Positions 21,507 through 32,713 of a stretch of DNA of 64,000 nt are shown one piece after another. Positions within the stretch are counted from its first letter, which is position 1, and each line of letters opens with the position of its first letter. The DNA is taken from NCBI RefSeq assembly GCF_000242915.1, contig NZ_AFRZ01000001.1, positions 2,108,001 to 2,172,000 on the forward strand, read 5' to 3'. Position numbers and translations under genes: made by a program. The notes beneath the pieces were generated by a model, which saw nothing but the letters and a program-made list of their open reading frames with translations, did not search any database and had not been told where the DNA came from. The stretch comes from Sulfurimonas gotlandica GD1. Its GTDB lineage: Bacteria > Campylobacterota > Campylobacteria > Campylobacterales > Sulfurimonadaceae.

Positions 21507-21893
21507 TTGGCTAAGAAAATTATATTAGTAGATGATTCTCGGACTATTTTAGTGACAGCTGAAATGGCTTTAGATGAGTTGGTAGCAGATGGATCTATTA
21601 CCCTTGTTACATATTTAAGTCCTGTAGAATTGCGAGATGCATTAGTAGAGGGTAGAGAAGATTTTGATTTGCTTATTAGTGATGTGAATATGCCACAACT
21701 TGATGGTTTGGAACTTGTTACCGAAATAAAACAACTAGAAGCCTTCAAAACAAAACCTATACTTATCCTTACTACTGAGAGCTCTGCTCAGATGAAGGCA
21801 AGAGGAAAAGAGATAGGAGTTACTGGCTGGATGGTTAAACCATTTAGTGATGAGAAGCTGGTAAAATCAATCAAGATGGTTCTAGGAATTTAA
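21507..21893 (+). CDS. cheY: CheY-like single-domain response regulator
   Basis: 128 residues, a lone receiver domain: VDDSRT near the start, acceptor Asp in ISDVNMP, Thr/Ser switch in LTTESS and Lys in MVKPFSD. The TTG start is fixed by AAGGAG seven bases upstream. As first gene of a che operon it is expected to take phosphate from CheA. Whether it binds the flagellar switch or another target cannot be told; the main flagellar CheY of these bacteria is normally encoded elsewhere. Confidence 0.88.
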   Translation: MAKKIILVDDSRTILVTAEMALDELVADGSITLVTYLSPVELRDALVEGREDFDLLISDVNMPQLDGLELVTEIKQLEAFKTKPILILTTESSAQMKARGKEIGVTGWMVKPFSDEKLVKSIKMVLGI

Positions 21894-21895
21894 CA

Positions 21896-22414
21896 GTGAT
21901 AAAAGATACACCAAAGAAAAAGCACACGATGGCAAATAAATATTTGACCTTCTTTGTTGAAGATGAATTATATGGGCTTAGCATCTCAAAGATAAAAGAG
22001 ATTATTGCACCAATACACATTACGAATATCCCAAAAACACCGAAATTTATTAAAGGTATTATTAATCTGCGTGGTTCTATTATCCCTGTAATAGATATAA
22101 GGCTGAAATTTGGAATGGATGAAAAAGAATCTGATGTAAACACTGCAATCATCATATATGAAGTCGATGGAATCTCAATAGGTTTTATTGTAGACCAGGT
22201 TGAAGATGTGATACTTCTAGATGATGATCATATCGTAGATACTCCTAACTTCGGTAACAACATAGATACATCATTTATAGAAAAAGTTGCAGAGATAGAT
22301 GAAAATGTCGTTGTTATGCTTTTAGACTTGCAAAAGATATTTGAAGCATCTGAACTGCTAGATATTAAAACAATAAAATTAAATGAAAAACAGACAAAAA
22401 AGGTGAAATCATGA
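21896..22414 (+). CDS. cheW: Chemotaxis adaptor CheW
   Basis: 172 residues, a single CheW domain: [51 protein letters not shown]. It couples receptors to CheA. GTG 21896 has AGGA eight bases upstream; ATG 21929 is the alternative start, closer to the usual family N-terminus. The stop overlaps the receptor start by three bases (ATGA). Confidence 0.92.
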
Positions 22415-24390
22415 AAATGACTATTAAAAAACAGTTGGTTGCAGCACTATTATTGGTAGGTGCAGGGCCATTTTTAATCATGGCACTAACGTCATCTATC
22501 TCTTCAGTTAAAGCACTGACTAAAGAAGCGGAAAATAAACTAGAGATGGCGAGGGATCTAAAAAGTAAGCAACTTGGCACATATTTTAAGATGCTAGAAC
22601 TTGGTCTTGGAAATATGGGTGAAGATAGAAAAATCTATGATCTTTACATCAAACTAAGAAATGTTCATGACAAGTATAAAGTAGCTCCAACCTCTAGTTT
22701 TAACATTACAGAAAAGTCAGAAGTAAAGAGAATTTACTCTGAATTTGATGAATATTTTCAAGGCTTTATACAAAAAAATGAACTTGATGATTTCTACTTA
22801 GTATGCTCAAAACATGGTCACGTTATGTATAGTGCAAATAAGAAATCAGATCTTGGTGAAAATCTTAAAACAGGACAACTCAGATCTACTATGATTGCAA
22901 AAGCATGGGAAAAAACAGTTGCAGATGGTAAAGCTCATTTAGTTGATATGAGTTCTTACTCTCCATCAAACGGTGAAGCAACTATGTTTATGAGTGTGCC
23001 GATGCTTAAACAGGGAAGTACTTTTGGTGTGATTATTGTTCAGATATCACCTAAGATGATTAATAAAATAATGCAAGAGCGCATTGGTATGGGTGGCACT
23101 GGAGAGACTTACTTAGTTGGACAAGACTACCTAATGCGTAGTGATAGTTTCATAAATGCAGATACTCACTCATTAAAAGCTTCATTTGCAAATAAAGATA
23201 AAGGCTCAGTTAAAACTGTAGCATCTAGCGGTGCAATAGCTGGTCAAATGGATACTGAGTTTATAACTGATTATAGAGGAATAAGAGTTCTCTCTTCTTA
23301 TGCACCATTTGTTTATGATAATCTTCATTGGGCAATTATTGCTGAAATAGATGAAGATGAAATATTAGCTACTGTCTATGAGCTAAGAAACAATATTCTT
23401 ATAATGGCTGCAGTGTTTTTAGTATTGATCCTTATTGCTGCATTAACTCTTGGTAGTTATATAAGCAAGCCAATTATTAAAGCAGTTAAGTCAATTATGG
23501 AGTCTAACAATCAGGTTGTTAGTGCATCTACCGAGATTACTGACTCATCTACAGCTCTTGCTCAAGGAGCAAGTGAGCAAGCGAGTGGAGTTGAAGAGGT
23601 TAGTGCAACAATAGAAGAGTCAACTGCTATTAACACGCAAAACAGTGCTAACCTGAATGAAGCAGACATTTTAGCTAAGAAATCAAAAGACTCAGCTCAA
23701 AATGGAAGTCACAAAGGTAAAGAGTTGATTAGTGCAATGATTGCCATCAATAGCTCTAGTGAGCGCATTTCTAAAATTATTAAAACAATTGATGAAATCG
23801 CAGCACAAACAAAACTTCTTGCTCTAAATGCAGCCGTTGAAGCAGCACGTGCAGGTGAACACGGTTTAGGTTTTGCAGTTGTTGCTGATGAGGTTAAGAG
23901 TCTCGCACAGCGTTCTTCAGAAGCGTCAAATGAAATCTCTACAATAATAGAAGAGTCTATATCTCAAACAAAAAATGGTACAGAGATAGCAAAAACAACA
24001 TCTCAAGCTTTTGAAGAGATTTTAGAACGTATCGAGGGAACATCTGCCCTTATTACAGAGATAGCATTATCATCAAAAGAACAGAGTGATGGGATGAATC
24101 AAATTGCAATGGCAATGGGTGAGATAGATAATGTTACTCAACAAAATGCAGCAACGAGTGAAGAGGCAGCAGCATCTGCTGAAGAGTTAAATGCACAAGC
24201 CATTTCCATGAATGAGATGGTAAAAGTTATAGCTAAAATGGTTGGTGAAGTTGTTGCTGAGACAAGAACAACTTCATATAAACCAGTGTATCAGAGCCAA
24301 ACGCCTAGAGAAAATAGAAAAAGAGGCTTTGTATCAAATGAGCCAAAGGACATTTTCCCTCTAGATGAAGAGGACCTCAAGGAATTTTAG
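22411..24390 (+). CDS. Methyl-accepting chemotaxis protein (Cache-type sensor)
   Basis: 659 residues. Transmembrane helices at about 7-30 and 325-350 flank a large periplasmic domain with the Cache-type signature [12 protein letters not shown]. The cytoplasmic part is the signalling hairpin, whose tip reads [37 protein letters not shown] tail of about 40 residues ends in an acidic stretch ([11 protein letters not shown]). The ligand is unknown; Cache domains usually bind small organic molecules. It is the operon's only receptor and is coupled by an ATGA overlap to cheW. Confidence 0.92.
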
Positions 24391-24654
24391 ATGACTATTG
24401 ATGGTGACATACTCGAAATAGAACTTAGCACTGATATAAAAGGTGTTATAGAGCTGAAAAACTTTATAGCACCAAGGCTCGAATATATCGAGGAGATAAA
24501 GGTGATTCAAGATACATCAATTTTTGCATCTTCAGCTTTGTTTGGTCTGCTTCATAGTGTTAAAAAAACAAAACCTAGTATTGTTATAGAAATGATAGAT
24601 AATGATGTGGAGTGTGATCAATACGGATTAATCCATTGGGTGAGACATGACTAA
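24391..24654 (+). CDS. Small STAS-domain protein
   Basis: 87 residues starting at the base after the receptor stop. The stretch VIQDTSIFASSALFGLLHS has the STAS pattern (strand, then a loop with Ser/Thr, then helix), and the rest fits a short anti-sigma-antagonist fold. A Ser sits where such proteins are phosphorylated. It overlaps cheA by eight bases, so it belongs to the pathway. STAS proteins also occur in alternative Che clusters; the partner is not known. Confidence 0.65.
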   Translation: MTIDGDILEIELSTDIKGVIELKNFIAPRLEYIEEIKVIQDTSIFASSALFGLLHSVKKTKPSIVIEMIDNDVECDQYGLIHWVRHD

Positions 24655-26737
24655 AGATAAAATACGCGAAATATTTATTGAAGAAGCTACCGAGATAATC
24701 GAGAAGCTTGATATAGATATCGTAGATTTTGAAGATACACCAGAAGATAAGAACTTAATAAATGAGTTGTTCCGTGGTGTTCACACTCTAAAGGGAAGTG
24801 CTAACTCTTTTGGATTTAACAGACTTGGTCAGTTTGTTCATAGTTTTGAAGATGTCCTTGATCATTATCGTAGTAGTGATGAAATAGTTACACATGAGAA
24901 TATAGATATCTTTTTACAAGCTGTTTGCATTATTAAAGATGTTTTGTCCTTAGAGGTAAATGGTGAGGGTGGACTACCTGAGAACTTCGATGAAACTATA
25001 GATGCTATGAAAGAGATGATATCAAAAAAAGTTACAAAATCATCTCCTTCTAAAGTATCCGCTAAACCATTGGCAGATTTGTCGGTTGAATTTTCAGAAC
25101 TTAATTTATCTAAATCTGTAAATGGCATCAAGTTTAGTGCTGATGAGATTATAAACTACAGTTCTAAGCTTGAAGATGGTGAAGAACTCTACCACATATC
25201 ATTTAGCCTTGATGAAGATATATATTTTCGTGGGTTCGACCATGCGAAACTCTTTAAGCTGCTTAGCGAAGAGGGACATATATTAGAATCATGGTGGGAT
25301 ATGAGTGATATACCAGATCTTACTACTTTCGATCCACAAAAGAGCACTATAGGTAGAGTTGATCTTATCTTAGCCAGCAGAAGTCCATCTTCAGATATTC
25401 ACGAACTTTTTGAGTATATTGAAGAACACGAATTTACTATGGAGTACATCAATAAAATCTTCGATAAAACTTTACAAGAAGAGATGCCATCTGTTGAGGA
25501 TGATATAGAAGAAATAGTTGAAGAGAAAAATGAAGAAAGTGTAGGCAGAAGTATAAACAATAGGGAAGTACGTTCTTTTGTTAAAGTAAACACGAGTAAG
25601 TTAGATGAACTTTTCGCATCTATAGGTGAACTTGTTGTTGCGCAAAACTTTATAGCAGAAAATGAAGATATTAAGCGCATTAAGAGTGAACGTGTTACTC
25701 AGACAATGAGTCTGCTCTCAAAAATCACAAAGTTGATTCAGAGTAAGGTAATGTCTCTTAGAATGGTTGCTATTGGTGATACTTTTGACAAGATGAAACT
25801 CGTTGCAAGAGATGCGTCCAGAAAGATAAATAAAGAGATATCTCTTGAACTTCACGGTGTTGAAACTGAGATAGATAAGATAATGATTGATGAATTGTCA
25901 AATCCTCTTATCCATCTAATACGTAATGCTATAGATCATGGACTTGAAAGTAACCCTGAAGATAGAGCAAAACTTGGTAAACCGGCTGTTGGAAGAATAT
26001 CTCTTAGAGCCTTTCACAAAGGCGGAAGTATAGCTATAGAAGTCTCTGATGATGGTAGAGGTATAAATAGAGATAAAATTTTTGCTAAAGCACTTGAAAA
26101 AGGTTTAGTAAAAAAAGATGACGAACTTAGTGATTCTCAAATATATGCCCTAATAATGGAACCAGGATTCTCTACTTTAGAGACTGTAACAGATCTATCA
26201 GGACGAGGAGTTGGATTAGATGTAGTAGTAGCATCTATAAATAAATTACACGGAAAAGTAGAGATTAAATCTCAGCTAGGTAAGGGAACAACTTTTACTA
26301 TTATTCTTCCTTTAACGCTGGCTATTATAGACGGGATGTTAGTTAGTAGTGCAGGTAATACATTTATTATTCCTACGCTCTCAGTTATTGAATCATTTTT
26401 CCCAAGTAAAAATATGGTTCATACCATTAAACATAAGGGAGAATTTGTTGATCTAAGAGGGGAGATGCTTCCAGTAGTGAGGTTAAATCAGACATTAGAG
26501 TTGGATGATAAAGCACCGAATATATGGGAATCTACACTGATATGTGTAGATAGTGCTCATGGCAAGTATACTATTTTAATAGATGACCTCATAGGTAGAC
26601 AGCAGGTCGTTATTAAATCTTTAGGACCTGTTCTCTCAAGACTAAAAGAGTTCTCAGGTAGCGCAATTATGGGTAGTGGAGAGATAGCACTTATTCTAAA
26701 TGTAGAAGAGTTGATAAATTACGGAGAGTATAATTAG
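24647..26737 (+). CDS. cheA: Chemotaxis histidine kinase CheA
   Basis: 696 residues. The HPt domain has the phospho-site His46 in GVHTLKGSANSFGF. Residues about 165-280 form the P2-like domain seen in many non-enteric CheA proteins (ELYHISFSLDEDIYFRG). Then come the dimerisation domain (VNTSKLDELFASIGELVVAQN), the ATPase domain (LIRNAIDHGLE, DDGRGI, GRGVGLDVV) and the CheW-like P5 domain to the end. There is no C-terminal receiver, unlike the CheA of many Campylobacterota main systems. Start and stop overlap both neighbours. Confidence 0.95.
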   Translation: MTKDKIREIFIEEATEIIEKLDIDIVDFEDTPEDKNLINELFRGVHTLKGSANSFGFNRLGQFVHSFEDVLDHYRSSDEIVTHENIDIFLQAVCIIKDVLSLEVNGEGGLPENFDETIDAMKEMISKKVTKSSPSKVSAKPLADLSVEFSELNLSKSVNGIKFSADEIINYSSKLEDGEELYHISFSLDEDIYFRGFDHAKLFKLLSEEGHILESWWDMSDIPDLTTFDPQKSTIGRVDLILASRSPSSDIHELFEYIEEHEFTMEYINKIFDKTLQEEMPSVEDDIEEIVEEKNEESVGRSINNREVRSFVKVNTSKLDELFASIGELVVAQNFIAENEDIKRIKSERVTQTMSLLSKITKLIQSKVMSLRMVAIGDTFDKMKLVARDASRKINKEISLELHGVETEIDKIMIDELSNPLIHLIRNAIDHGLESNPEDRAKLGKPAVGRISLRAFHKGGSIAIEVSDDGRGINRDKIFAKALEKGLVKKDDELSDSQIYALIMEPGFSTLETVTDLSGRGVGLDVVVASINKLHGKVEIKSQLGKGTTFTIILPLTLAIIDGMLVSSAGNTFIIPTLSVIESFFPSKNMVHTIKHKGEFVDLRGEMLPVVRLNQTLELDDKAPNIWESTLICVDSAHGKYTILIDDLIGRQQVVIKSLGPVLSRLKEFSGSAIMGSGEIALILNVEELINYGEYN

Positions 26738-27567
26738 TGCCTTACGAAAAAGAACTTAGCCATGAGGTATTTGAAAAATTTCAAGAACTGATATATCATG
26801 AAATAGGCATCAATCTTTCAGAACACAAACGTACACTTGTACAAACACGTCTTAGAAAATGGCTTATAAAGTTTGAGCTCAATAGTTATAGTGAGCTATA
26901 TGAGAAGATAGCTGATGACAAGAGCGATCAGATGCTAATAATGCTGGTAAATGCAATCACAACAAATGTTACTTCTTTTTTTCGTGAAGATAGTCAGTGG
27001 ATATATCTTTTACAAAATATAGATACAATGTTTGACAGAGAGAATAAGCGTATTCGCATCTGGTCGGCGGCTTGTTCTAGCGGTGAAGAGCCATACAGTA
27101 TTCTTATGTTTTTAAAAGAGCATTTGAATGATTTTCATAAGTGGGATATTAAGATCTTGGCAACAGATATTTCTGAGAATATGCTGCAACATGCACAAAA
27201 TGGAATCTATGAAGAGAAAAATATGCAAAGTATTCCTAAACATATGAAATACAAGTATTTTATTCCGGCAATAGGCAAAAATGGCGGTAAGGCATTTGCT
27301 ATAAAAGATGAGTTGAAAAAGTACATTATTTTTCGCTCTTTTAACCTTGTAACAGGTGATTACACGATATTTAAAAATAAGTTTGATGTGATTTTTTGCA
27401 GAAACGTTATGATCTATTTTGACCGTAAAACTCAAGACCAGTTATTATTTGAGTTCACAAACTTGCTTAGGAAAGGCTCTAGAGTCTTTGTTGGACACTC
27501 AGAGTCTATTCAAAATAAAAAACTAAACTATAAATTGGTCTCGCCATCAATTTATCAACTAAAATAA
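26737..27567 (+). CDS. cheR: Chemotaxis methyltransferase CheR
   Basis: 276 residues, standard two-domain CheR: an N-terminal helical domain with TTNVTSFFRE, and a SAM-binding domain with IWSAACSSGEEPYS, ATDISENML and FDVIFCRNVMIYF. It methylates receptor glutamates for adaptation. The GTG start shares its first base with the cheA TAG stop. There is no C-terminal receptor-tethering TPR. Confidence 0.94.
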   Translation: MPYEKELSHEVFEKFQELIYHEIGINLSEHKRTLVQTRLRKWLIKFELNSYSELYEKIADDKSDQMLIMLVNAITTNVTSFFREDSQWIYLLQNIDTMFDRENKRIRIWSAACSSGEEPYSILMFLKEHLNDFHKWDIKILATDISENMLQHAQNGIYEEKNMQSIPKHMKYKYFIPAIGKNGGKAFAIKDELKKYIIFRSFNLVTGDYTIFKNKFDVIFCRNVMIYFDRKTQDQLLFEFTNLLRKGSRVFVGHSESIQNKKLNYKLVSPSIYQLK

Positions 27568-27578
27568 AGGGGACAGAT

Positions 27579-28469
27579 ATGGATATTTCAACAATTACAG
27601 ACGACAAGTTACTTCAAGAGATTGGACGCAGGTTTCATGAGAAAAAATCTTCTATAGATGAGATGGAAGAGATGACAAAAAAGCTTCTTGTTTTAAATGA
27701 AAAAAACAAAAAATCTCAAGAGATAAAAAGTAAGTTCTTATCACTGGTGAAAAATGAGTTTAATAATCCTATGTCTTCTCTTTTAAACCTGGTAAATATG
27801 ATGGTGAAAAAATCACAAGATCCGAAATTGGCAGAGTTGTCTTCTTTAATGAAGATGGAACTGTTAAAACTAGATTTTAGTCTAAAAAATATCTTTTGTG
27901 CATCTGAGATAGAAGCCGGTGAGATAGCAAACGACTACTCTATGGTGAAAATAAAAGATATTTATGATGAGGTGACAAACTATTTTAGTTTTCTTATAGA
28001 GGAGAAATCTTTAGAGATAAACTACAGTTCAGATGGTTCTGATGAGATCATAAGTGACTCTCAAAAAGTAAATATCATCCTTTTAAATTTAGTGTCAAAT
28101 GCCTGTGAGTACTCTTACTCAAACTCTAAAATAGATGTATCATTTTCCAGTGATGATGATAACTATATCATAAGAGTTGAAGATATGGGTGAGGGAATCT
28201 TAGAAGGCAAAGAGCAAGATATCTACAGTAGTTTTTATCACTATGAATCAGGTAATACTCGCAGAACAGCAGGATTGGGTCTAGGGCTTAGTGTTGCTAG
28301 CGGACTCGTAGAGTCACTTGATGGAAGCATAGAAAATTTCAGACAAGAGAACAAGACAGTATTTACTGTGAAGATATCAAAAGTTGATGAGAAAGATGTA
28401 AGTCTCTCAAGAGGAATCGGTTCTAATGAGTTTATATTTGATGACTCAGAGGAAATGGTAGAGTTTTAA
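27579..28469 (+). CDS. Histidine-kinase-like protein lacking the phospho-accepting His
   Basis: 296 residues, soluble. A coiled coil (about 25-55) leads to a region that aligns with the H-box, FLSLVKNEFNNPMSSLL, in which the His-Glu pair is Asn59-Glu60. The ATPase half is intact: N-box LVSNACEYS, G1 VEDMGEGI, F-box-like SSFYHYES and G2 AGLGLGLSVA. It may bind ATP and phosphorylate another protein, or act as an allosteric partner of CheA, but cannot autophosphorylate at the canonical site. Placed between cheR and cheD in the operon, with AAAGGGG upstream. Confidence 0.8.
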   Translation: MDISTITDDKLLQEIGRRFHEKKSSIDEMEEMTKKLLVLNEKNKKSQEIKSKFLSLVKNEFNNPMSSLLNLVNMMVKKSQDPKLAELSSLMKMELLKLDFSLKNIFCASEIEAGEIANDYSMVKIKDIYDEVTNYFSFLIEEKSLEINYSSDGSDEIISDSQKVNIILLNLVSNACEYSYSNSKIDVSFSSDDDNYIIRVEDMGEGILEGKEQDIYSSFYHYESGNTRRTAGLGLGLSVASGLVESLDGSIENFRQENKTVFTVKISKVDEKDVSLSRGIGSNEFIFDDSEEMVEF

Positions 28470-28472
28470 ACA

Positions 28473-28937
28473 ATGTATATACGAAAATTTATTCACGTTG
28501 GTGAGATTAATATTGGTGCCAGACCTACAGAAATAAGCACAATATTAGGCTCATGTATTGCTGTATGTTTGTATGATAGTGTTCATTGCATAGGTGGTAT
28601 GAACCATTACCTTGTCCCACTTTGGAATGAACACGGTCTTCAAACTCCAAAATATGGAAATATTTCAATACCTAGGCTTATAGAGAGTATGTTAAATATT
28701 GGCTGTGAGATAGAAAATATGCAGGCAAAGATATTCGGCGGTGCTCATGTACTTGATATAACTGGTGAAGATATGATGGTTGGGCGTAAAAATATACTGA
28801 TTGCTAAAGAGATTTTAAAAGAATATGGCATACCAATAACTGCCAGCGATGTTGGCGGGGATAAAGGTAGAAGAATTATGATGCGCAGTGATACTGGGAA
28901 AGTTCTTTTAAAGTACATCCAAAAAAGTGAGGTGTAG
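28473..28937 (+). CDS. cheD: Chemoreceptor glutamine deamidase CheD
   Basis: 154 residues. The catalytic Cys28 (LGSCIAVCLYD) and His45 (GGMNHYLVP) are present, followed by KIFGGAHVL and DVGGDKGRR. CheD deamidates receptor glutamines and in some species works with CheC. No cheC or cheZ lies in this operon. Three bases separate it from the kinase-like gene. Confidence 0.95.
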   Translation: MYIRKFIHVGEINIGARPTEISTILGSCIAVCLYDSVHCIGGMNHYLVPLWNEHGLQTPKYGNISIPRLIESMLNIGCEIENMQAKIFGGAHVLDITGEDMMVGRKNILIAKEILKEYGIPITASDVGGDKGRRIMMRSDTGKVLLKYIQKSEV

Positions 28938-28940
28938 ATC

Positions 28941-29978
28941 GTGAGATTTAAAGTTTTAGTTGTTGATGATAGTGCCACAGCAAGAGAAATTATTACTAGT
29001 ATACTGAGCAGTGATCCAGATATAAAAGAGATAGTTACAGCTAACGATGCTTATGAAGCTCGAGATATAATTGTTGATTTTAAACCTGATGTTATATGTC
29101 TGGATATAGAGATGCCAAAAATGGACGGTATAACTTTTTTAAGAAAAATTATGAAGTACATGCCTACCCCGGTTGTAATGGTTTCAAAAATGACAAAAGC
29201 GGGAGCTAGTAAAACACTGGAATCTTTAGAGGCTGGAGCTGTTGATGTTGTCGAGAAGCCAACTATGAAAATGTTAAACGATTCAGACAAACACGCTCTG
29301 GAATTAATAGAAAAAGTTAAAAGTGCAGCCGGTGCAAATATCTTAAATAAAGCAAATCCCGCTTCTATTGTACATCTTACTTTTACTAAGCCATCTTCTC
29401 AAACAAGACAAAAAGTGATAGCCATTGGAGTATCTACAGGTGGTGTAGAAGCTTTGAAAAACTTTCTGCCGCAGTTTCCAAAAAGTTCACCAGGGATGCT
29501 TATAGTCCAGCACATGCCTGAGAACTTTACTAAACAGCTTGCAGATAGGTTAAATACATTTTGCGATATAGAAGTCAGAGAAGCTAAAAATGGAGACATT
29601 TTAACCGATGGAATCGCCTTGATAGCCCCAGGAGATCTGCATATGGTGCTGAGATATTCAAATAAACAGTATCACGTTGAACTTGGGACTGGTGAAAAAG
29701 TTTCAGGTCACCGTCCTTCTGTCGATGTACTATTTAACTCTGTAGCTAAAACAGCATCTAATGATGCAGTGGGTATCATTCTGACCGGAATGGGATCAGA
29801 TGGAGCAAAAGGTCTGTTAAATATGCGCAAAAGTGGTGCTATGACTTTTGGTCAGGATAGTGTAAGTTCTGTTGTTTATGGAATGCCTAAAGTTGCTAAT
29901 GATCTTGGTGCGGTTGTTAAACAAAATTCTCTTAAAGCGCTTCCAAGAGATATCTTAAAATATTTAGAAAAGGTTTAA
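28941..29978 (+). CDS. cheB: Chemotaxis protein-glutamate methylesterase CheB
   Basis: 345 residues. An N-terminal receiver (VVDDSAT; acceptor Asp55 in CLDIEMPKMDG) is joined by a linker to the methylesterase domain with catalytic Ser in IGVSTGGVEAL, His in VQHMPENFT and Asp in TGMGSDGAKG. It removes receptor methyl groups when phosphorylated by CheA. GTG start three bases after cheD. With CheR and CheD it gives this pathway a full adaptation set. Confidence 0.95.
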   Translation: MRFKVLVVDDSATAREIITSILSSDPDIKEIVTANDAYEARDIIVDFKPDVICLDIEMPKMDGITFLRKIMKYMPTPVVMVSKMTKAGASKTLESLEAGAVDVVEKPTMKMLNDSDKHALELIEKVKSAAGANILNKANPASIVHLTFTKPSSQTRQKVIAIGVSTGGVEALKNFLPQFPKSSPGMLIVQHMPENFTKQLADRLNTFCDIEVREAKNGDILTDGIALIAPGDLHMVLRYSNKQYHVELGTGEKVSGHRPSVDVLFNSVAKTASNDAVGIILTGMGSDGAKGLLNMRKSGAMTFGQDSVSSVVYGMPKVANDLGAVVKQNSLKALPRDILKYLEKV

Positions 29979-29982
29979 ATTT

Positions 29983-32034
29983 ATGAAAAATATATTGATT
30001 GTAGATGATAGTAAATTTATCCGAACAGTTGTTAAAGAAGAAATCTCAAAAATAGTACAAGCCAATATGTTTATGGCTCAATCTTATGAGCAAGCGAAGC
30101 GTTTTATGGAAGAAAATGTCTTTGATATAGCAGTCTTAGATGTGCACCTTCCAGATGCAGACAATGGTGAAGTTATTGATCTTGCACTTAAATATGATAT
30201 TCCAATAATTGTTTTAAGCAGCGGAATAAATGAGACTATTAAAAACATAGTTTTAGAAAAAAATATCGTAGAGTATGTTTCTAAAAGTGATCCTCAAAGT
30301 ATAAGTTATATAGCTACATCTGTAAATAGAATACTTAAAAATTGTGATGAAACTGTTCTTATTGTTGATGATTCAGAAAGTACAAGAGAGTTACTAAAGA
30401 CTTATTTACAAAAACTTCAAATTAATGTTTTAGAAGCTCATGATGCTGAAGAAGCAGTAGAAATATTAAAAGCAAATCACATATCTTTGGTCTTGATAGA
30501 TTATAAACTCCCTACTATGAATGGTATGGATTTGACAATGCTATTGCGTCAAACTTATTCTAAAGATAGACTTGCAATAATCGCTATAAGTGCGCATAAC
30601 AGCAAAGCAATAGCTACAAATTTTTTACGTCAAGGTGCGAATGATTTTCTTGCTAAACCGTTTACATATGAAGAGTTTAGTACAAGGGTAAATGTAAACA
30701 TAGAACTCATAGACTTGTTTACAGAAAATAAAAACAAATCAAAAGAGGTAGAGGCTGCCTATAAGCTTTTCAACAATGGTAATATTATCGTTTTTAAATG
30801 GAAAAATACGACTGACTGGCCTGTTGAATATGTTTCTGAGAGTTTGGAAAATATCTTAGGATATAAACCAGAAGCATTTCTAAACTCCCATATCAAGTAT
30901 AGTAAAATTATTCATGAAGATGATTTAGAGAGAGTTTTTATTGAAGTTCAAGAGAACTCGCAAAAGAGAGTTGCTTCATTTCAGCATGAAGACTACAGAA
31001 TAAAACGTCATGATGGAAGTTATGCCTGGATACATGACACAACACAGATAGTTTATGACAGTAATAAAGACATAAGTCACTATATCGGATACATTGTTGA
31101 CATAACAGAACAAAGAGAAAAAGAAGAAGAACTTCACGATTATATTGAGCGCTTTAACTTGGCAATTGAGAGTAGTCGTGATGGACTCTGGGACTGGAGC
31201 ATCAAAAAAAATACAATGTTCTGTTCAACTGCACTTTTAACAATGCTTGGATATGAGAATGATGATGTTGAGTGTAGTTTTGAGTTCTTAAAAAGACTTG
31301 TTCATCCGGATGATGTAGGAGATGCTGAGAAAAAACTTCATGAGCATCTAAATGCCAACACGGAGTATTATGAAACTGAGTATAGAGTAATGACTAAGTC
31401 TGGTGAATATAAGTGGATTTTAAATCGTGCAAAAGTTCTTTTTGATAAAGAGTGGGCTCCAGATAGAGTTATCGGTTTTTACACTGATATAGACAGTAGA
31501 AAAGAGCTTGAACTTAGGTTAGAGCATCTAAGTATGACTGATAAATTAACTGGCCTGCTAAATCGTAATGGGTTAATTGAAAATTTTGAAATCTTCCAAA
31601 AAAGTGCTCAAAGATTTGACCGTAAAATGGGTTTGATGTTTATAGACCTTGATGGCTTTAAAAAAGTTAATGATACTCTTGGACATGCCGCAGGTGATGA
31701 AGTCCTTATTATCATAAGTGATAGACTTCAAAGTATGAGCAGAAGTAATGAGATTGCTGTTCGTATTGGTGGAGATGAGTTTGTAATTTTCATCCCTGAG
31801 TACGAAGATATTGATGAACTATCATCACTCTCTCAACGTATTTTAGATAGCTTTAGCATACCACTTAGCATAAAAGATGGTGAAGTCTCTATCGGCATGA
31901 GTATCGGTATAGCAACCGCAGATAATAGAGAAACTTTAGATGAGATCTTGTCTAGAGCTGATGAGGCGATGTATAAGGTTAAAAAAAGCGGTAAAGATGG
32001 CTACGCCTTTGCTGATATTTCTACTAAAGAGTAA
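29983..32034 (+). CDS. Diguanylate cyclase with REC-REC-PAS-PAS-GGDEF architecture
   Basis: 683 residues, four bases after cheB. Receiver 1 (VDDSKFI, acceptor Asp in VLDVHLPDAD) and receiver 2 (VDDSEST, acceptor Asp in LIDYKLPTMNG; KPF present) are followed by two PAS domains with PAC tails (WPVEYVSESLENILGY and SSRDGLWDWSIKKN) and a GGDEF domain with intact active site (VRIGGDEF). The inhibitory RxxD site five residues before it is RSNE, so feedback inhibition may be weak. As last gene of the che operon it is the most likely output, converting the receptor signal into c-di-GMP. Confidence 0.9.
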   Translation: MKNILIVDDSKFIRTVVKEEISKIVQANMFMAQSYEQAKRFMEENVFDIAVLDVHLPDADNGEVIDLALKYDIPIIVLSSGINETIKNIVLEKNIVEYVSKSDPQSISYIATSVNRILKNCDETVLIVDDSESTRELLKTYLQKLQINVLEAHDAEEAVEILKANHISLVLIDYKLPTMNGMDLTMLLRQTYSKDRLAIIAISAHNSKAIATNFLRQGANDFLAKPFTYEEFSTRVNVNIELIDLFTENKNKSKEVEAAYKLFNNGNIIVFKWKNTTDWPVEYVSESLENILGYKPEAFLNSHIKYSKIIHEDDLERVFIEVQENSQKRVASFQHEDYRIKRHDGSYAWIHDTTQIVYDSNKDISHYIGYIVDITEQREKEEELHDYIERFNLAIESSRDGLWDWSIKKNTMFCSTALLTMLGYENDDVECSFEFLKRLVHPDDVGDAEKKLHEHLNANTEYYETEYRVMTKSGEYKWILNRAKVLFDKEWAPDRVIGFYTDIDSRKELELRLEHLSMTDKLTGLLNRNGLIENFEIFQKSAQRFDRKMGLMFIDLDGFKKVNDTLGHAAGDEVLIIISDRLQSMSRSNEIAVRIGGDEFVIFIPEYEDIDELSSLSQRILDSFSIPLSIKDGEVSIGMSIGIATADNRETLDEILSRADEAMYKVKKSGKDGYAFADISTKE

Positions 32035-32083: not shown

Positions 32084-32713
32084 ATGAGTAAAACAACACT
32101 AATGGCCATTTTAGTAATTATGTTTGTTGCAGTGATAGTTGTTATAAAAGAGAGTAGAGAAGACTTGTCAAAAAATATTTTAGATAAAGATGCTGTAATA
32201 CTGGCATTTGGAGATAGTTTAACACACGGTTTTGGTGCATCTATTAAGGATAGTTATCCTGCACAGCTAGAGAAAAAAACTGGACTAAAAGTCATTAATG
32301 CTGGGATAAACGGTGAGACTACTTCTGAGGGATTGCTTCGCCTTCCTAAGTTCTTAGAACAAAAACCAGACTTAGTTATTCTTTGTCATGGTGGTAATGA
32401 CATCCTTCAAAAGCTATCACAAGAAAATCTAAAAAGTAATCTGCAAAAGATGGTAAGACTTATAAAGCAAAGTGGAGCGGAAGTTATTTTGGTCGCTGTA
32501 CCTGATTTTCATATGTTTGGTTTTGGTACACTTTCACTATATGCTGAAGTTGCTGATGAAGTAGGAATATTACTAGAAGATGATGTACTGACTCATATAG
32601 AGCTAAATAGAGCTCTAAAGAGTGACTATGTACACCCAAATGAAAAAGGGTACGAGATGATGGCGAATGCCTTTGTGAAAATTCTTAAAGATTATAAATT
32701 TATTGCACCTTAA
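32084..32713 (+). CDS. SGNH/GDSL esterase (TesA-like arylesterase)
   Basis: 209 residues. An N-terminal membrane anchor (about 5-22) is followed by the GDSL block AFGDSLTHGFG (catalytic Ser), INGETTSEGL, the HGGND block and the terminal DYVHPNEKGY with catalytic Asp and His. These are periplasmic lysophospholipase/thioesterase-type enzymes. The gene ends 14 bases inside the convergent FecR-domain gene. Its likely promoter would give a leaderless mRNA. Confidence 0.88.
   Translation: MSKTTLMAILVIMFVAVIVVIKESREDLSKNILDKDAVILAFGDSLTHGFGASIKDSYPAQLEKKTGLKVINAGINGETTSEGLLRLPKFLEQKPDLVILCHGGNDILQKLSQENLKSNLQKMVRLIKQSGAEVILVAVPDFHMFGFGTLSLYAEVADEVGILLEDDVLTHIELNRALKSDYVHPNEKGYEMMANAFVKILKDYKFIAP

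Follow-up and report, generated by a model that had tools for sequence, protein, structure and literature searches.

In the Campylobacterota, class F7 chemosensory systems are described by a key that comprises CheA, CheB, CheD, CheR, CheW, CheY, a receptor, a STAS gene (S) and a histidine-kinase gene (K; PMC9239204), and a second study gives the name ‘F7_Sulfurospirillum’ to a gene order of those genera in which we find the operon described here (PMC9321776). Both studies state that the outputs of accessory chemosensory classes are mostly unknown where a species has several. Our analysis concerns a locus of Sulfurimonas gotlandica GD1 in a window of 64,000 nucleotides (the whole stretch of DNA analysed; positions 2,108,001 to 2,172,000 of contig NZ_AFRZ01000001.1), in which ten open reading frames (ORFs) of the + strand follow one another at 21507-32034. 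We hold with moderate confidence that the first nine constitute a class F7-type chemosensory operon, with a self-contained array and one dedicated receptor. This nine-gene core is widely conserved across Campylobacterota genera and is already known, since the published F7 lists for the phylum include the K and S genes and name the same genera. The suggestion of a preliminary description of this DNA, that the gene set might be undescribed, is therefore not supported. The likeness to the published Campylobacterota F7 systems covers genera, key genes and the 36H receptor; the available text of both papers, which leaves the gene order to figures, is silent on a cyclase, on a missing kinase histidine and on shared tails. 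The newer observations are a kinase-like protein devoid of its histidine and a C-terminal tail shared between proteins of the system, the tail having been compared with the pentapeptide literature only.

Conservation was assessed with gene 7 as query against 150 genomes of the family, followed by reading of the neighbourhoods, in which domain labels came from phmmer with queries taken from the GD1 window. The order cheY-cheW-receptor-STAS-like-cheA-cheR-pseudokinase-cheD-cheB recurs at about 45 loci of the family and in complete Sulfurospirillum genomes; a scan of named genomes gave 80 loci in Sulfurimonas, Sulfuricurvum, Sulfurospirillum and relatives, and a search of the phylum found gene 7 orthologs in three further families. 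In relatives a PAS protein is sometimes inserted after cheR, such as the 455-aa protein that lies between cheR and the pseudokinase gene in Sulfuricurvum and some Sulfurimonas (L051:5701-7068 and similar). One relative carries cheY-cheW-receptor duplicated in tandem at the head of the operon (L041:53-5975), and two Sulfurospirillum-like loci contain damaged genes: a pseudokinase gene broken into two ORFs with three opposite-strand ORFs in between (L143) and a cheA in two ORFs (L142).

The class assignment relies on the membrane chemoreceptor (22411..24390; Pfam dCache_1 and MCPsignal), whose hairpin aligns without gaps to Escherichia coli Tar and Tap and thus has the 36H type of F7. Of the gene content that marks F7 clusters (cheD, a STAS gene and no cheC), cheD is present and cheC is not, and the STAS-like gene has no match in Pfam or among Protein Data Bank (PDB) sequences. 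The 2.95 Mb genome contains three CheA loci. Besides the F7-type operon there are an F3-type locus, cheV-cheA-cheW (L037), and an F9-like cluster (L038; G000:C1:370000-389999), whose double-MCP (methyl-accepting chemotaxis protein) receptor and multi-CheW protein agree with the published account of F9 (PMC9321776). Pairwise scores of the operon CheA against E. coli F7, the genome's own F3 and its own F9-like CheA lie close together, these three standing in for a reference set of all classes. A weak CheZ-like match has a gene for a U32 peptidase as its neighbour, an arrangement reported for F3 (PMC9321776).

All ten genes claimed in the preliminary description were located, in one direction and tightly spaced, with overlaps of at most 8 bases and gaps of at most 11; ORF calling used length and a simple rule of selection, and the predicted start codons include TTG and GTG. 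Pfam agrees with an accessory system that has the full adaptation set, namely cheR (26737..27567; CheR_N and CheR), cheD (28473..28937) and cheB (28941..29978; REC-CheB), and detects no cheC, cheX or cheZ among the ten genes. It likewise bears out the domain calls for cheW (21896..22414) and for cheA (24647..26737; Hpt, H-kinase_dim, HATPase and CheW, with HTLKG in the Hpt domain and no REC). Only the STAS call for the fourth gene (24391..24654, 87 aa) drew no confirmation from the sequence: this protein and 20 orthologs have no match in Pfam or among PDB sequences, and it is absent from the STAS matches of the GD1 genome. Its putative label derives from where it lies in the operon and from the STAS gene listed in the published key to the gene order (PMC9239204).

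Gene 7 (27579..28469) is a predicted pseudokinase whose acceptor histidine has been lost class-wide, with the nucleotide site retained. It combines a HisKA-like helical hairpin of the dimerization and histidine phosphotransfer type with an ATPase domain, the latter being the only part recognised by Pfam, and in its structural model the ATPase domain comes after a long hairpin of helices (pLDDT 81). A profile of 42 orthologs aligns over the whole HisKA catalytic core and places the histidine of BarA-type and solved kinases opposite Asn59, within a degenerate H-box that reads NEFNNP (27753..27770) in place of the canonical HExxTP. Among 97 distinct sequences, the phospho-acceptor position is occupied by Asn in 83, Ser in 13 and Tyr in one, and never by His; the Pro of the H-box varies little or not at all, and most of the N- and G-box residues are conserved. 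At H+4, where Thr or Asn is the catalytic residue of HisKA-type phosphatases, 90 sequences, the GD1 protein among them, have Asn and seven have Asp. Gene 7 therefore lacks the residue that defines a HisKA kinase and carries the one that is expected of a HisKA-type phosphatase.

A phosphatase role is the reading that we favour for this protein, because the operon is without CheC, CheX and CheZ. An almost equal rival, to which we would give only slightly less than an even chance, is that the pseudokinase acts as a scaffold or as a regulator of CheA in the manner of DivL or RetS. Both of these proteins are among the profile matches of gene 7, and His-less or regulatory kinases of such a kind are known. 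Moreover, the acid at H+1, which is Glu in just 61 of the 97 sequences, weighs against a phosphatase, since some of the sequences lack a complete ExxN motif. On the other side, the (near-)invariant Asn/Asp and Pro and the retained ATP site across the 97 sequences are harder to reconcile with a pure scaffold, and the operon contains no other known phosphatase. The regulator alternative is compatible with either reading of the cyclase discussed below.

The pseudokinase ends in EEMVEF (28449..28466), and a related tail of 13 residues closes the receptor (24349..24387). The rule by which we recognised such tails was drawn up after they had been seen, so the following counts describe the tails and do not test them. 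At these loci, 105/113 large MCPs end in DL[KR]EF or a near variant, mostly DLKEF or DLREF, with P-10, L-9, D-5, E-2 and F-1 as invariant positions of the receptor tail, and 132/136 pseudokinases end in E[FLIM]; under another tail rule, which excludes Ala at -4, the count for histidine kinases is 33/100. The rule is never passed by the CheR, CheB, CheD, CheW, STAS-like, CheA or c-di-GMP (cyclic di-GMP) enzymes of these loci. Genome-wide, two DNA patterns, used in place of the full proteome, gave 17 matches, six of which are the ends of real ORFs of at least 40 aa: the operon receptor, the pseudokinase, a 134-aa protein of the F9-like cluster and three others (one REC and one recX-like). In the models of the pseudokinase and of a recX protein the tails have very low confidence, as expected of disordered ends.

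The recX-type REC proteins end in an acidic C-terminal stretch closed by FF or LF, the last residue being F in 96%, and have no Pfam match beyond REC. This family (about 430 aa; L145:7822-9114 and relatives) also shares a DIHYLDSSL stretch in addition to the acidic tail, and its genes often lie 3' of a HisKA kinase gene downstream of cheB. In a model of 430 aa, the receiver (1-122) alone was matched, the remainder being barely compared. The F9-like cluster encodes, besides a 922-aa CheA, a recX-type REC protein and the 134-aa protein, which has a CheZ-like DxxxQ stretch (YQDIISQQL) and the tail TDEIEFF.

The tail does not fit the pentapeptide of the NWETF type, whose pattern is xZxxZ, where Z is F, W or Y (PMC7390727), as the receptor's DLKEF has Leu at position 2. 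The CheR loop that would bind such a pentapeptide is long in GD1 and in L219, and short in L163 and L166. As for a CheZ-like CheY-binding peptide, the genome's own CheZ-like protein ends in STDDIEALLEQFGS, which is just loosely similar.

The tenth gene (29983..32034) encodes a diguanylate cyclase of Pfam architecture 2xREC-2xPAS-GGDEF. Here the preliminary description was accurate: two receivers are present (REC1, 29983..30336; REC2, 30343..30708), and the inhibitory site reads RSNE (31741..31752) ahead of an intact GGDEF active site (31768..31782), both read from the translation. Each receiver keeps the phospho-Asp, acidic pair and Lys, and together they align over 246 residues to 3luf, a solved structure with tandem receivers. 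A ten-gene order conserved in relatives, for which the preliminary description proposed a search, was not borne out by the neighbourhoods: the nine genes are widespread, and a full-length cyclase ortholog occurs in 2/135 genus genomes, GD1 and G430 (88% identical), which rules out the ten genes as a conserved system. In the metagenome-assembled genome of the close relative Sulfurimonas sp. NORP168 (L144), which may be the same genome as G430, the cyclase gene lies directly 3' of cheB with a 4-base gap; the protein is 88% identical to that of GD1, with domains at 85-91%, most other operon genes being at 82-90% and cheY at 98%. Its presence in the same slot at this identity makes the cyclase, a lineage-specific gene, a maintained operon member in the GD1/NORP168 lineage.

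Elsewhere, the slot after cheB is most often filled by a histidine kinase together with a REC protein whose C-terminal part has no assignment. At 93 distinct loci, which include NORP168 as one of the two c-di-GMP cases and leave out the GD1 window itself, the next gene encodes a kinase at 30 loci and a REC protein at 19; recX-type REC proteins account for four loci, other proteins for 19 and c-di-GMP enzymes for two. Proteins of the REC-GGDEF-EAL, REC-HD-GYP and GD1 cyclase types occur near these operons no more often than their surroundings predict: c-di-GMP domains are found in 21/209 (10.0%) of the next five co-directed genes and in 42/500 (8.4%) of other neighbours (p=0.47). This comparison rules out c-di-GMP enzymes as the usual output of the class.

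From adjacency and from the intact receivers, we infer that CheA may phosphorylate the cyclase. Several observations weigh against this reading, namely the absence of the cyclase from nearly all relatives, the lack of enrichment downstream of the operon, a C-terminus (DISTKE) without the shared tail, and the resemblance of the REC-REC half to orphan REC-REC-GGDEF proteins, owing to which another kinase could drive the enzyme. They leave a real, if lesser, possibility that the cyclase is a bystander, recruited beside the operon and co-transcribed with it but answering to other kinases or to PAS domains of its own, while the array signals solely via CheY to some further target. A GGDEF neighbour is indeed not rare in this genome, whose 113 GGDEF matches correspond to about 4% of genes, assuming some 2,900; 137 c-di-GMP enzymes have been reported for GD1, and two species with a surge of such enzymes carry F3/F7/F9, a pattern that the GD1 genome fits (PMC9239204). 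Against a bystander stand the intact receivers, the tight spacing and same slot in NORP168, and an identity that equals that of the core genes in all five domains. A c-di-GMP output is thus plausible for the GD1 lineage and is not a property of the F7-type system, since the tenth gene is lineage-specific and the genes that follow the operon show no enrichment in c-di-GMP enzymes.

The single-REC CheY (21507..21893) has an intact active site. At the positions used to infer FliM binding (PMC9321776), the GD1 protein has V, S, W and S for W58, K91, Y106 and K119 of E. coli. Among 68 orthologs, S91 and W106 are found in 68/68, W58 is replaced by V or I and K119 by S, A or T, with the catalytic residues kept. 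Since CheY and its orthologs are without most FliM-contact residues, a non-motor output of the operon is likely, judging from these sequences. The preliminary proposal of c-di-GMP rather than, or besides, motor switching was thus reasonable in its non-motor part, given also the co-inheritance in NORP168; its c-di-GMP part, which the CheY substitutions support, is plausible for the GD1 lineage, and downstream genes do not back it for the class. The Y106W variant of E. coli CheY is active toward FliM, so some contact with the motor may persist, a point that weighs against a non-motor output. Nevertheless, it appears improbable that the array steers flagellar motor switching like the F7 system of E. 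coli, with c-di-GMP as a side effect: the complete adaptation set, the naming of published F classes after flagellar control and the activating W106 would fit, but W58, K91 and K119 are lost class-wide, there is one cognate receptor only, and the genome has its separate F3 locus and weak CheZ-like match.

Taken together, we regard as about evenly balanced a model in which the F7 array signals via CheA to CheY, CheB and, in the GD1 lineage, the cyclase, with the pseudokinase and the tails as partners. The periplasmic dCache sensor of the 36H receptor would act on CheW/CheA, with adaptation by CheR, CheB and CheD. Phosphorylated CheA would pass phosphate to CheY, CheB and, in the GD1 lineage, one or both cyclase receivers, raising c-di-GMP. 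The pseudokinase would dephosphorylate CheY or the cyclase receivers in place of the absent CheC, CheX and CheZ, and the shared tails could gather receptor and pseudokinase, with a REC partner in relatives, at a common docking site. It is tempting, if rather unlikely, that Campylobacterota F7 systems contain an unrecognised response regulator phosphatase, a His-less HisKA protein, tethered with the receptor and REC outputs by a docking-tail motif distinct from NWETF. If true, this would explain how the signal is ended and how the partners are kept apart from the F3 motility array of the same cell. In the cyclase one would have an example, at the level of a lineage, of an F7-type array wired to c-di-GMP.

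Beyond the cyclase gene, a putative SGNH-esterase-like ORF (32084..32713, + strand, 209 aa; family assigned from sequence reading) starts after 49 bases, and it is likewise the next gene in NORP168; the operon unit may therefore comprise eleven genes, with this ORF last. Promoter and terminator scans gave results at chance level.

Among better-known systems, the gammaproteobacterial F7 clusters of stages 1-2 (Vibrio cholerae, Pseudomonas aeruginosa; PMC7184735) share cheY, cheA, cheW, a 36H receptor, cheR, cheD and cheB with the GD1 operon, and have an anti-sigma-factor-antagonist gene to which the STAS-like gene 4 may correspond; they differ in having cytosolic Aer2-like receptors and no cyclase, and no kinase-like gene is described between cheR and cheD. 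The Wsp system (class ACF) similarly places a chemosensory array beside a REC-GGDEF protein. However, its CheR-TPR, CheA-REC, 40H receptor and one-REC WspR have no counterpart in GD1, where CheR (276 aa) is without TPR, CheA (696 aa) is without a C-terminal receiver and CheD is present. Cluster 2 of Halomonas titanicae (PMC5907407) also includes a two-receiver GGDEF protein, but the cluster is Wsp-like (CheA-REC, CheR-TPR, 40H) and its cyclase begins with an Hpt domain, whereas Pfam finds two PAS domains and no Hpt in that of GD1. Finally, the role proposed for gene 7 can be likened to that of Rhodobacter sphaeroides CheA3, which is a kinase-derived phosphatase for CheY6 that has a phosphorylatable His domain, unlike the His-less HisKA protein of GD1 (PMC6829392).

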